A stretch of 64,000 bases of DNA from Gemmatimonas sp. (GTDB taxonomy: Bacteria > Gemmatimonadota > Gemmatimonadetes > Gemmatimonadales > Gemmatimonadaceae): the NCBI GenBank assembly GCA_011390885.1, contig JAABRO010000009.1, forward strand, positions 1 to 64,000, read 5' to 3'. Shown here piece after piece: positions 46,588 through 50,809 of the stretch. The notes under the pieces are model-generated. The model ran no database searches and was not told the origin of the DNA. It was given only the letters and a program-made list of their open reading frames with translations. Position 1 is the first letter of the stretch, and every line of letters starts with the position of its first letter. A program made the position numbers and the translations under genes.

Positions 46588-49500
46588 TCACCACGCGAGG
46601 GAGTCGTTGGCGAACCAGGGAATCTCGAGGCGCTCGCCGCGCCAGAGCTGCAGCGCACCGACGCGCACGGTGGTGCCGATCGACTGCCCGTCGATCATCA
46701 CGCGCAGCGGCTCGTCGAGCGGAATGCGACTCTGGCTGACCCGCACCACGCGACCATCGATCGCGAGGCCGCAGCGCCCGTCACGAAAGAGCTGCAGGCG
46801 GAAGGTGTGCCATTCACCATGCGTGACCGCCGCCTCGGGACCCTTGAGCGGTTCACCGGACCCGCCAACGATGAGCACGCCGTGTCGCATGGCGTCGCCG
46901 CCCTCGGCACGCGGAAATCGAAAGCCGCAGCGCCGCGGTGCGGCGAAGGCCCTGTGCTCGACCATCTCGACGCCGTCGCGACGCCCCTCCCAACTGGCCA
47001 GCGCCTGTGCGGGGGCAACCGGGGTCAACACGACGATGAGCGTCTGCCACATCGGCGCGTCGACCGGGATGCGCGCCCGCAGTTCGAGGCCGATTCCCTC
47101 GCGCGGGTCGGTGGCCGTCCAGCTCACGACTCCGCTCGTCAGGTGTCCATCCCCATTGGGCAGCAGGTGGCCCGTCTCGATCCGGGGCGGCGGTTCACCG
47201 AAATCCATCCATCGCGTCGTGTCGAGCGTTGCCCAGGACTCGGCGAGCACGAGCGTCTCGAACTGGCGCGGCACGATGCGCACGGTGGTGGTGTCGGCGC
47301 GCCAGCCGCCTGCGGACACGACGATGCGGGCTTCTCCGGGGCGCTGCGGCATCAGGCGCCCGCTCGGTGAAACCCGCGCGATCATCGTGTCGAGGGACTG
47401 CCATCGCAGGACGCCCGGTTTTCGGACCACGCCGCGCGCGTCCACGCCGACGGCGGTCAGCTGCATGAGGGCATCCATGGGTACGGCCTTACCTGGCGGC
47501 GAAATGTGTACCGCTGCGAGTTCAGTCTGTCTCCGCCGCGGGATGTCCCACGCCAGCAGGGCCGCATCCATGTCGATCCCGTGTCCGTTCCACAGCACCG
47601 GCACCTGGTGCTGTGGACGCTCCGTCTCGAAGGCGATCGTCGCATTCGCCCGTCCGTCCGCACCGATGGCCGTCCCCAGCGCGAAGCGTCCGTCCGGGGA
47701 GACGCTGTAGCCGTGCGCGCCACGATGCAGCACGCGCACGGCACCGGTGCTCACATTCAGCCGGGCGAGCACGCGATCGGCGCCGTCGAGCGCCTCACCT
47801 TCAACGATGAGCTCGTCGGTGTCAGACCAGGCGCGAGGCTGAGGCGCCTCTAAGGTGCCATTCGGCTCGAGACAGTGCGCAACCGCGCCATCCGCGGTAA
47901 TCCAGCACACCTCGGCTGCTCGTTCCGAGGTGTAATGCCGTCTCATGAAGGCGACCCGCGTACCGTCCGCGCTCCAGATTCCCAGCGCTTCCAGCTCCGG
48001 CGACTGCACGAGCGGCGTGACCACGCCGCTGGTTCGATCCAGGATACCGAGATCCTGCCGCGAGGTAAGCGTGTCCCACCGGCTCGTCGCGATGACCGCG
48101 CGGCTGCCGTCCGGTGAGAAGCTCGGGGTGTTGTCGTCACCGACCGCCTCGGCGATGCGCCGCAACTCGCCGGTGCTGAGCACGAGCGCCTCGAGTTCCA
48201 CACCAAGCCGCGCCCCGTGTCGCGTGCTGGCCACGATCAGCGTGTCGCCCAGGCGCGAGTACCAGGCGCTGAACGCCTGCAACAGGCGTCTGGTCGTGTC
48301 GGGGAGTCGCTCCTCCCGCACCTCGATGACATCCGCGCGTCGAAGCTCCTCGGACTCGAGCGCCACGCGCAGCAGCCGCAGTTCGTCGCCCACCCGCGCC
48401 GGCAGGTTGGCCACCGCATCCGGCGTGCGCTCCAGCGCGCCACTCCGTTGTCCCTGCACTGCAAGCATCACCGCGAGCAGTCCCACCACACCGATCGTGG
48501 CCGAACGCGCCGTGCTGGCCGCGCTGGTGCGCAGGCGCCACGGCAGGGCGCGCACCAGCGCCTGCCGCTCGGCGCGCTCGGTGTCCGCACCCAGCACGTC
48601 GGCGGCGAGGGCGAGCAGGGCGTTGCGGTCGCCCCCCGCGTGCGTGAGGCGCACCAGGCGCGCGAAGAGCAGCTGCACCTCGCGCGTGTCCCCCGCCTCG
48701 CGCCGATGGCGTGCCGCGCGCAGCAGCAGCGTGGGTGTTTCGACGCCGCTCCCCTCGAGCACCACCGCGGCCTGCCGATGGGCACGCGCGAGGCGGGCTG
48801 GCGCGGCCAGTTCGCGCGCCAGCTCCGCGATCTCGTCGTGGGCGATCGTCCAGCGCCCGTCCCGGTGCGAAAGTTGTCCGCGCGACTCCAGCTCCAGGAG
48901 CGCGGCGGCTCCCTCGTCGCCGAGCACACGCTGCGCTTCCACCGCCGACAGGTCCGAGCCGAGCACGGCCAGCAGCAGCAGGGTAGCCTGGTGCGCCTCG
49001 CTCACGGCCAGGAGGCGCTGGCGAATGGCGCTGCCGCCGGCCAGCGTGCGCTCGAGCGCGTCCGGGTCGAGGCAGCTCCAGCGGCGATCGACGAGTGACA
49101 GCGCCCCTTGCTCGATCGCCAGCTGCAGCGATTCGAGCACGAGCAGCGGTGAGCCGTCGGTGGAGGCGGCGAGGCGAGCGGCGAACGACTCCACCCACGC
49201 GGCCACCGGCAGCTCACCGAGACTCTCGACCAACGCGCCGATCTGGTCTTCCGTGAGCGGCGCGAGGCTGAACTGCGACACACGTGCGCCGTCGGTCTCG
49301 AGCCGCTCGGGCTGACGGCTCGTCGTGACCAGCAGGACGTGCTGCTCGCCGAGGCTGGCGGCGACACTGCCGAGCATGCCGCGCGACCCAGCGTCGGCCC
49401 AGTGCAGGTCGTCGATCAGGATGGCGATGGGCGCGTCATCGGCGACGGTGGCGATGAGCTCCTGCAGGGCGAAGGTGCGCCGCCGGAGTGCGTCATCGCC

Positions 49501-50670
49501 GGTCGATCGGTCGGGCGGCGCGTTCAGGTGCGCGCTGACGCCGGGGGCAAGCGCGACGAGCGCGCTGGCCGCCTCGGGCGAGATGCCGGCCGCCCCGCGA
49601 AGCCGGGCGAGCGCCAGTGTGAGCTCGGCCGCGAGGGCGTAGGGGATCTCGCGATTGGCCTGGAGCGCACGCACGCTCACCAGCCGCCCGCGTGCGGCAC
49701 GCAGCCGGCGCGCGAAGCCCTGGAGCAGGCGCGTCTTGCCCATACCGGGGCGGGCCCAGATGTGCACATGGACGGCGGCACCGCGCCGCGCGTTCTCCCA
49801 CCCCTTGAGCAGGTTGGCGAATTCGCGATCGCGGCCGATCAGTTCAGCCACGAGGCCATCGGGCGCCAGCTCGCGCTCCCGCCCCGATTCGCTGCGCACC
49901 AGCCGGATGGTGCCCAGGGTGGCCTTGTCCGCCGTCAGCTCTTCGCGGGCCAGCCACTGTTCGAGCTGTTCGACCTCGACGAGGGCCGAGATCCGGTCGT
50001 CCGCCGCGAGCAGCATCTCGAGCAGGAGTCGCCACGCGGCCTGCGCCGACGGCGTGAGGTCGCGGGCGCGTCGCGCGACCTGGACGGCGTCACGGGGGCG
50101 TCCCGCCGTCAGCAGCTCGTGGGCGCGCGCGTCGGCGGCCCGTGTGTACAACGACCGCAGCCGGTTGCGCTCGAGGTCCGCCCACTGCTCGAACTCGGCA
50201 CCGCCGGGCGCCGCGAAGCCCGGGAAGAAGTCCCCGGTATAGGCCGCCACGGCGTCGTCAGGTCGCGAGGCATCGAGCGCGGCGAGGAAGGCGTCACGGT
50301 CCGTGGCCACCCACGGCTCGAGGGTGAGCGTGTCACCCTTGGCGAGGAACGGATCGACGCCGAGCCGGCGCTTGATGTACCAGACCGTCTGCCGGAGGGT
50401 GTGTCGCGCCGCATCGCGCTCGACGTCGGCCCACAGCAGATCGATGAGCTGGTCGCGCGACGCGGAGCGACCGGGCGAGCAGGCGAGGAAGGCCAGCAGG
50501 GCCAGCGGCTTGCCGACGGCCAGCGGTTGCGCCCCGAGTGCCGCCGGTCCGGAGAGGCGGGCGCTACCGAGCAGCGTGAGCTCGGCGGCGGGAGGCGGGG
50601 AGGCGGAGGCGGCCTCCTCCGCGGTGCTGCGAGGCGGGAGGGACTCTGGCACGAGGCGGGGGTCGGGCAT
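46588..50670 (-). CDS. membrane-spanning BTAD transcriptional regulator with NTPase, beta-propeller and concanavalin-like domains
   Basis: 1360 aa. Residues ~30-110 form an OmpR/SARP winged helix (DQLIDLLWADVERDAARHTL, RQTVWYIKRRLG). Residues ~115-255 form a BTAD helical domain. An AAA/STAND NTPase follows, with Walker A ARPGMGKTR near 304-313 and Walker B ILIDDLHWAD near 415-424. One hydrophobic segment (IGVVGLLAVMLAV, about 722-738) looks like a membrane helix. After it come PD40/TolB-type beta-propeller repeats (PSFSPDGSRAVIAT; SVSPDGRFALGT), a Big2-like strand set, and a C-terminal concanavalin-like domain (~1150-1350). This suggests a one-protein sensor: outside propeller and lectin-like domain, inside DNA-binding module. 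Ligand and targets are unknown. Confidence 0.83.
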   Translation of the reverse strand: MPDPRLVPESLPPRSTAEEAASASPPPAAELTLLGSARLSGPAALGAQPLAVGKPLALLAFLACSPGRSASRDQLIDLLWADVERDAARHTLRQTVWYIKRRLGVDPFLAKGDTLTLEPWVATDRDAFLAALDASRPDDAVAAYTGDFFPGFAAPGGAEFEQWADLERNRLRSLYTRAADARAHELLTAGRPRDAVQVARRARDLTPSAQAAWRLLLEMLLAADDRISALVEVEQLEQWLAREELTADKATLGTIRLVRSESGRERELAPDGLVAELIGRDREFANLLKGWENARRGAAVHVHIWARPGMGKTRLLQGFARRLRAARGRLVSVRALQANREIPYALAAELTLALARLRGAAGISPEAASALVALAPGVSAHLNAPPDRSTGDDALRRRTFALQELIATVADDAPIAILIDDLHWADAGSRGMLGSVAASLGEQHVLLVTTSRQPERLETDGARVSQFSLAPLTEDQIGALVESLGELPVAAWVESFAARLAASTDGSPLLVLESLQLAIEQGALSLVDRRWSCLDPDALERTLAGGSAIRQRLLAVSEAHQATLLLLAVLGSDLSAVEAQRVLGDEGAAALLELESRGQLSHRDGRWTIAHDEIAELARELAAPARLARAHRQAAVVLEGSGVETPTLLLRAARHRREAGDTREVQLLFARLVRLTHAGGDRNALLALAADVLGADTERAERQALVRALPWRLRTSAASTARSATIGVVGLLAVMLAVQGQRSGALERTPDAVANLPARVGDELRLLRVALESEELRRADVIEVREERLPDTTRRLLQAFSAWYSRLGDTLIVASTRHGARLGVELEALVLSTGELRRIAEAVGDDNTPSFSPDGSRAVIATSRWDTLTSRQDLGILDRTSGVVTPLVQSPELEALGIWSADGTRVAFMRRHYTSERAAEVCWITADGAVAHCLEPNGTLEAPQPRAWSDTDELIVEGEALDGADRVLARLNVSTGAVRVLHRGAHGYSVSPDGRFALGTAIGADGRANATIAFETERPQHQVPVLWNGHGIDMDAALLAWDIPRRRQTELAAVHISPPGKAVPMDALMQLTAVGVDARGVVRKPGVLRWQSLDTMIARVSPSGRLMPQRPGEARIVVSAGGWRADTTTVRIVPRQFETLVLAESWATLDTTRWMDFGEPPPRIETGHLLPNGDGHLTSGVVSWTATDPREGIGLELRARIPVDAPMWQTLIVVLTPVAPAQALASWEGRRDGVEMVEHRAFAAPRRCGFRFPRAEGGDAMRHGVLIVGGSGEPLKGPEAAVTHGEWHTFRLQLFRDGRCGLAIDGRVVRVSQSRIPLDEPLRVMIDGQSIGTTVRVGALQLWRGERLEIPWFANDSLAW

Positions 50671-50809
50671 GGTCCAGCCAGGACCGGATTCGGCGCCCGT
50701 CAGCTTCGGCGGGGCACCGTCAGAACAGTATGCACACCCCCCGTCATCAGGCCGTCAAATGGTGCCCCGACCTTCTGACTCCGACCCGTTCCCATTACCG
50801 GACAACGAC

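Follow-up and report, generated by a model that had tools for sequence, protein, structure and literature searches.

A probable one-component transmembrane regulator of Gemmatimonas joining a SARP–STAND front half to a propeller–lectin-like outer half, with a candidate operator at its own promoter

The stretch of DNA considered here (the window, 64,000 nucleotides of contig JAABRO010000009.1 of a Gemmatimonas sp., assembly GCA_011390885.1) carries on its minus strand a gene for a large regulator, which we regard as quite probably a one-component transmembrane transcription regulator: a SARP domain gated by a STAND nucleoside triphosphatase (NTPase) and acting on an 11-bp repeat, its own promoter included. 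The protein appears to cross the membrane once. Sequence and model data support an arrangement in which the SARP winged helix, the BTAD and the NTPase lie inside, and a propeller and a lectin-like part lie outside. Since the inner half combines DNA binding of the antibiotic-regulator type with an ATP switch and the outer half a propeller with a lectin fold, the regulator probably reports an outside cue directly to a promoter. Regulators of the SARP and STAND kinds have mostly been described as soluble, and the signals that they receive have often not been identified. If the reading holds, a lineage with an outside sensor and a predictable operator would join CadC/ToxR-type signalling to an AfsR/MalT-type switch, and the outer half together with the autoregulated promoter would give a direct route to the signal received by a STAND regulator. 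In Gemmatimonadota, a phylum that has been little studied, it might further account for the way in which polymers outside the cell are linked to transcription.

The original prediction had read from the sequence, in one chain of 1360 residues, a SARP winged helix, a BTAD, an NTPase with Walker A and B motifs, a hydrophobic segment, a PD40/TolB-like propeller, a Big2-like part and a concanavalin-like C-terminus, and this layout is borne out by the open reading frame (ORF), by Pfam and by predicted folds. Pfam recognizes AAA_16 (residues 276-448, E 2e-18) and PD40 (6e-7) in the regulator, as well as Trans_reg_C at residues 55-107 (1e-5), with a score of 25.9 bits that is slightly below the cut-off of 26.2. 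In a genome-wide family scan, BTAD (PF03704) reached 29.1 bits for a cut-off of 22.1, and its profile is matched by 19 of 23 family members. The Big_2 match is weak in the regulator itself (0.27) and ranges from 1.4e-4 to 1.8e-5 in relatives, while residues 829-998 are assigned to TolB by NCBIfam and PDB sequence searches.

Two AlphaFold models, built on alignments of 23 family members, give a finer view of these modules. In the front-half model (residues 28-760), which has a predicted local distance difference test (pLDDT) score of 88, the SARP part resembles EmbR as well as AfsR as seen in a transcription complex (8k60; Z 16.8 over 231 residues); an N-terminal OmpR-type winged helix followed by a BTAD is the order that defines a SARP domain. 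The NTPase part matches the STAND protein 6mfv (Z 25.6) and MalT (8bob, Z 24.1), and is therefore of the STAND kind found in AfsR and MalT. The STAND hallmarks are indeed present: AAA_16, invariant GxGK, DD and HD motifs, and a winged-helix/arm region after the NTPase. In the back-half model (residues 745-1360, pLDDT 80.6), residues 747-1045 superpose on residues about 141-431 of TolB (Z 22.4). The N-terminal domain of TolB is absent before the propeller in this fold comparison, and the membrane helix and STAND part stand there instead. A small Ig-like domain follows the propeller in the model, and residues 1138-1348 adopt the concanavalin fold of L-type lectins and of glycoside hydrolase family 16 (GH16), with Emp46, ERGIC-53 and beta-glucanase as matches (Z about 17 over about 190 residues).

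Membrane insertion, with the propeller and the lectin-like part outside as in the original prediction, is supported by several independent computations: conserved hydropathy, charge bias, compartment-specific cysteines, a soluble paralogue and the fold matches. On the Kyte-Doolittle scale, no 19-mer of the regulator is more hydrophobic than segment 720-738; the helix forecast near 722-738 corresponds, in the front-half model, to a continuous helix at residues 717-742, of low confidence. It is the family evidence that decides the membrane-helix call. The helix position has the highest mean hydropathy of the alignment (1.81, with a minimum of 1.21); the letters of its columns agree at only 43%, so it is hydrophobicity itself that is conserved. 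Among 62 fetched ORFs carrying both halves, a few of them counted twice through overlapping loci, 54 have a 19-mer with hydropathy of at least 1.6 between the halves. The mean net charge is +3.3 over the 12 residues before the segment and +0.15 over the 12 after it, the N-terminal flank being the more positive in 54 ORFs and the less positive in two. By the positive-inside rule, this basic flank places the SARP–STAND half in the cytoplasm. In the 23 closest full-length members, the invariant cysteines (922, 933, 1248 and 1300) are all C-terminal to the segment, and none is found in the about 694 residues that precede it. In the wider set, Cys922 and Cys933 are nearly always retained or lost as a pair, and in most distant members the number of cysteines C-terminal to the helix is 0, 2 or 4. 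Such paired, even-numbered cysteines beyond the helix fit disulfides in an oxidising compartment. A transmembrane transcription regulator (TTR) is defined by a single chain that has a DNA-binding domain together with one or more membrane helices, and the protein shows this combination, its helix being judged by hydropathy and charge.

The layout is not a product of chance, since full-length relatives occur in many genomes. About 25 of them, with 32-52% identity, are listed from 148 genomes of the same taxonomic family, and an outer-half profile retrieves full or nearly full modules from further orders and families of Gemmatimonadota. The original prediction had allowed that related genes may exist in this phylum, and they do; a chance ORF or a chimera could be discarded given full-length relatives in dozens of genomes. 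Judged from these sequences, the layout is that of a protein family conserved across Gemmatimonadota. In the front-half tree, the window protein and its two congeners form a fully supported group. When 84,980 species were scanned, the best full-length matches listed nearly all belonged to Gemmatimonadota, the exceptions among the matches listed being L044 ‘Kuenenia’ (partial) and L046 ‘bacterium’, and such bins may be mis-binned. The apparent restriction to the phylum rests on the listed matches of this one scan and is no proof of absence elsewhere.

Variants of the family show which of its parts are separable. Two short forms of 891 and 905 residues combine SARP, helix and outer module without STAND. 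A class of about 1050 residues shares SARP, STAND and helix, and carries a different outer part of about 300 residues. The swapping of outer parts on the same front half and the STAND-less short form indicate a modular design, which supports a transmembrane regulator. The same genome also encodes a soluble paralogue with SARP and STAND, which has neither the outer module nor the hydrophobic helix; it serves as a negative control for the helix assignment and, because it shares the front half, demonstrates that such a half can occur free of the membrane.

Support for SARP-type DNA binding comes from the upstream region, a line of evidence that is new relative to the original prediction. SARPs recognise direct repeats with a spacing of 11 or 22 bp, of which the 3' one is 8 bp from the -10 element (PMC10936776). 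TTGACGG-N4-ATGACGG-N8-CATACT has this very geometry, which is that of SARP boxes in Streptomyces. This candidate operator sits in intergenic DNA, 87 bp upstream of the ATG, and such an arrangement occurs in 0.2-0.4% of dinucleotide shuffles of the upstream stretch. TGACG repeated at 11-bp spacing is found in the upstream regions of 13 of 41 relatives (0 or 1 in shuffles), which makes it the most frequent of all 5-mer/spacing combinations, the next best reaching 4. In 8 of these 13 regions, a -10-like hexamer of the pattern NANNNT follows at a distance of exactly 8 bp, every other offset being seen at most twice; the binomial p of 1.5e-9 (3.3% background) is optimistic, since the sequences are related. 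In the fetched neighbourhoods, 843 kb in total, most of the boxes precede the regulator on the same strand. The recurrence of the 11-bp repeat, with a -10 at 8 bp, supports both SARP-type binding and autoregulation, and suggests that the regulator's own promoter is one target of the predicted binding. A perfect TGACGG-N5-TGACGG occurs twice in the genome, before the regulator and before the soluble paralogue, and a congener carries the same two perfect boxes. Enrichment of the one-mismatch box is inconsistent (42 versus 8 backward-pattern controls in the own genome, and 44 versus 24 and 44 versus 58 in two congeners), which is why we propose no regulon that extends past the gene and its paralogue.

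These elements can be assembled into a tentative mechanism. The N-terminal SARP domain, with its OmpR-type winged helix and BTAD, and the STAND NTPase would lie in the cytoplasm, helix 717-742 would span the inner membrane once, and the TolB-like propeller, the Ig-like domain and the lectin-like domain, probably held by two disulfides, would face the periplasm. An outside polymer, sugar or protein ligand would bind or leave, and this change would act through the helix on the nucleotide state or the oligomerisation of the STAND part, presumably freeing the SARP domain. The latter would then bind TTGACGG-N4-ATGACGG, 8 bp before a weak -10, and recruit RNA polymerase, the regulator's own promoter being among its targets. 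Ligand binding, the direction in which the signal runs, the gating by STAND, an activating and not a repressing effect, and any further targets are what we infer here, from a layout, folds, family conservation, topology signals and an operator geometry that computation displays directly. A more specific proposal, to which we give somewhat less than an even chance, is a transmembrane STAND receptor in which an outside ligand on the propeller–lectin part gates STAND through the single helix and frees SARP on its own promoter, the outer module being exchanged in evolution and a sister clade controlling pseudopilin arrays.

Several observations weigh against a membrane-spanning regulator with an outside sensor and a shared operator. 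On the Goldman–Engelman–Steitz scale, the segment is only joint best in the regulator and does not stand out, and relatives have a short helix rich in alanine. The TGACG box was found in 13 of the 41 relatives and not in all, others showing different 11-bp repeats. The modelled lectin fold is no proof of sugar binding, and the neighbourhood comparison yields no consistent neighbour gene pointing to a ligand.

The same topology data bear on the other ways in which such a protein could work. Hydropathy, charge and cysteines are compatible with a membrane-anchored precursor that is cut by a protease near the helix upon an outside cue, the freed SARP–STAND part then working in the cytoplasm, and the soluble paralogue shows that the front half can occur without an anchor. 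However, no protease gene recurs beside the regulators, in an analysis in which cleavage motifs were not searched for, and regulators of the CadC/ToxR type, by the account in a TTR survey (PMC10269533), act while still in the membrane, which leaves release by proteolysis unlikely. Still less credit can be given to a wholly cytoplasmic protein, in which the hydrophobic stretch would be a buried helix and the propeller–lectin part would sense an internal ligand, as do the C-terminal sensors of soluble STAND proteins such as AfsR and MalT. The moderate hydropathy of the segment would suit it, but the basic N-terminal flank is retained in 54 of the 62 ORFs, the cysteines are paired and compartment-specific, the paralogue that lacks the outer module also lacks the helix, and a short form has the helix but no STAND.

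Conceivably, the outer half is no sensor but serves adhesion or anchoring to the envelope, by binding peptidoglycan, a lipoprotein or polysaccharide; it would then position the regulator, the signal being a nucleotide state or a phosphorylation inside. TolB propellers do bind Pal, as seen in PDB entries, and a lectin fold suits polymers, whereas the swapping of the outer part among relatives with the same front half looks more like an exchange of input domains. The swapping does not speak strongly against anchoring, which we hold to be the least probable of these alternatives, slightly behind the cytoplasmic one.

Compared with known systems, the regulator would work like CadC and ToxR, and by the features examined it qualifies at once as a large SARP, as a STAND protein and as a TTR. 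It shares with CadC and ToxR a single chain with an OmpR-type winged helix inside, one helix and a probable sensor outside. The DNA-binding domain is less different from theirs than the original prediction stated, since SARPs carry an OmpR-type winged helix too (PMC10936776). The true differences are the added BTAD and STAND switch, and an outer half made of a TolB-type propeller, an Ig domain and a lectin fold. CadC has a periplasmic cysteine pair, Cys208-Cys272 (PMC3096576), as the outer half of the regulator has cysteine pairs on that side. The main text of the 2023 TTR survey mentions neither SARP, BTAD nor Gemmatimonadota (PMC10269533). With AfsR and other large SARPs, the regulator shares the order of OmpR-type DNA-binding domain, BTAD and STAND, the AfsR fold and, in the candidate operator, direct repeats at 11 bp that end 8 bp before the -10. 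AfsR, in contrast, has a C-terminal TPR region and no described membrane part, where the regulator has the helix and the presumed outside sensor. MalT and related STAND regulators share the NTPase fold, with a DDLHWAD Walker B region in the regulator. The DNA-binding domain of MalT is C-terminal and of LuxR type, whereas that of the regulator is an N-terminal SARP, with the presumed sensor across the membrane. The six-bladed PD40 propeller is that of TolB but belongs here to a regulator, a Pal/Tol function being without support. Likewise, the concanavalin fold is shared with the L-type lectins Emp46 and ERGIC-53 and with GH16 at an identity of about 10% only. The claim that no described system has this exact layout also holds for the literature searched: the SARP–STAND–helix–propeller–lectin combination was not found in full-text searches, subscription papers and preprints being outside their coverage.

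Table 1. Positions of the regulator gene, its predicted modules, the candidate operator and the soluble paralogue (window positions unless a locus is given).
Feature	Position	Strand	Basis
Regulator gene, 1360 residues + stop	46588..50670	minus	ORF, ATG start; full-length relatives
OmpR-type winged-helix DNA-binding domain, residues about 28-125	50296..50589	minus	Trans_reg_C; AfsR/EmbR fold match
BTAD, residues about 126-262	49885..50295	minus	PF03704 over cut-off; AfsR match
STAND NTPase + arm, residues about 263-710	48541..49884	minus	AAA_16 E 2e-18; MalT and 6mfv matches
AAA_16 core inside STAND NTPase, residues 276-448	49327-49845	minus	Pfam
Walker A, ARPGMGKT (306-313)	49732..49755	minus	G309, G311, K312 invariant, 23 family members
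Walker B region, IAILIDDLHWAD (415-426)	49393..49428	minus	D420, D421, H423, W424, D426 invariant, 23 family members
His-Asp 611-612, putative MHD-like position of STAND proteins	48835..48840	minus	invariant, 23 family members
Predicted single transmembrane helix, residues 717-742	48445..48522	minus	hydropathy, basic N-flank, predicted helix
TolB-like six-bladed propeller (747-1045), predicted extracytoplasmic	47536..48432	minus	PD40; TolB Z 22.4
Invariant Cys922 + Cys933, likely disulfide across hairpin	47872..47907	minus	family alignment
Big_2-like Ig domain (about 1050-1128)	47287..47523	minus	weak Big_2 match, stronger in relatives (to 1.8e-5)
Concanavalin/L-type-lectin fold (1138-1348), invariant Cys1248 + Cys1300	46627..47259	minus	Emp46, ERGIC-53, GH16 matches
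Candidate SARP operator and -10: TTGACGG-CCTG-ATGACGG (50758-50741), 8 bp, CATACT (50732-50727)	50727..50758	minus	
Soluble SARP–STAND paralogue, 1124 residues	L248 5279-8650 (own genome, C54)		equivalent L249 in congener G024

Within the genus, the gene is flanked by an acyl-CoA-synthetase-like (AMP-binding) gene on one side and a small convergent gene on the other; this context changes in farther relatives, and the neighbourhood comparison shows no operon partner shared more widely than within the genus and among a few close relatives. Secreted polymer-degrading genes stand beside some regulators, namely two GH29 fucosidases (L162), GH127 (L183), GH9 (L161) and an M1 peptidase (L045), an anecdotal observation made without a control.

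Upstream of the regulators at L180, L188, L193, L197 and L198, other repeats with the same 11-bp spacing are seen (AGCGTCCA, CGTTAGG, TCACACG, CGTTA); in these other clades, the differing repeats suggest diverged operator sequences. At L170 (position 12550, plus strand), the 11-bp TGACG-type box lies 131 bp before a divergent gene for a 937-residue fibronectin-III protein adjoining the regulator, and this gene is a possible second target.

Among the variants, the STAND-less forms, in which a membrane helix joins SARP to this outer module, are found at L143, L144 and L148, and the class of about 1050 residues at L049, L050, L052, L053 and L054, most of them with a C-terminal cysteine pair. At L184 (1203-8584), two full-length regulators stand in tandem, the second beginning at the end of the first. 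At L146 (2-2716), the outer module is fused to a secreted-looking, possibly TIM-barrel-like N-terminal part; this fusion was dropped as a proof of export, since no relative of the N-terminal part turned up in 198 genomes and a chimeric contig is possible.

A clade of seven regulators (L195, L196, L197, L198, L211, L212 and L213; 100/100 support) is located inside pseudopilin arrays in 7 of 7 genomes, each array of this sister clade holding 2-6 prepilin-like (GFTLxE) genes. Pseudopilins are found in none of the 40 other regulator loci. At one of the array loci, genes for an O-antigen-ligase-like protein and for an AAA_22 ATPase lie close by.

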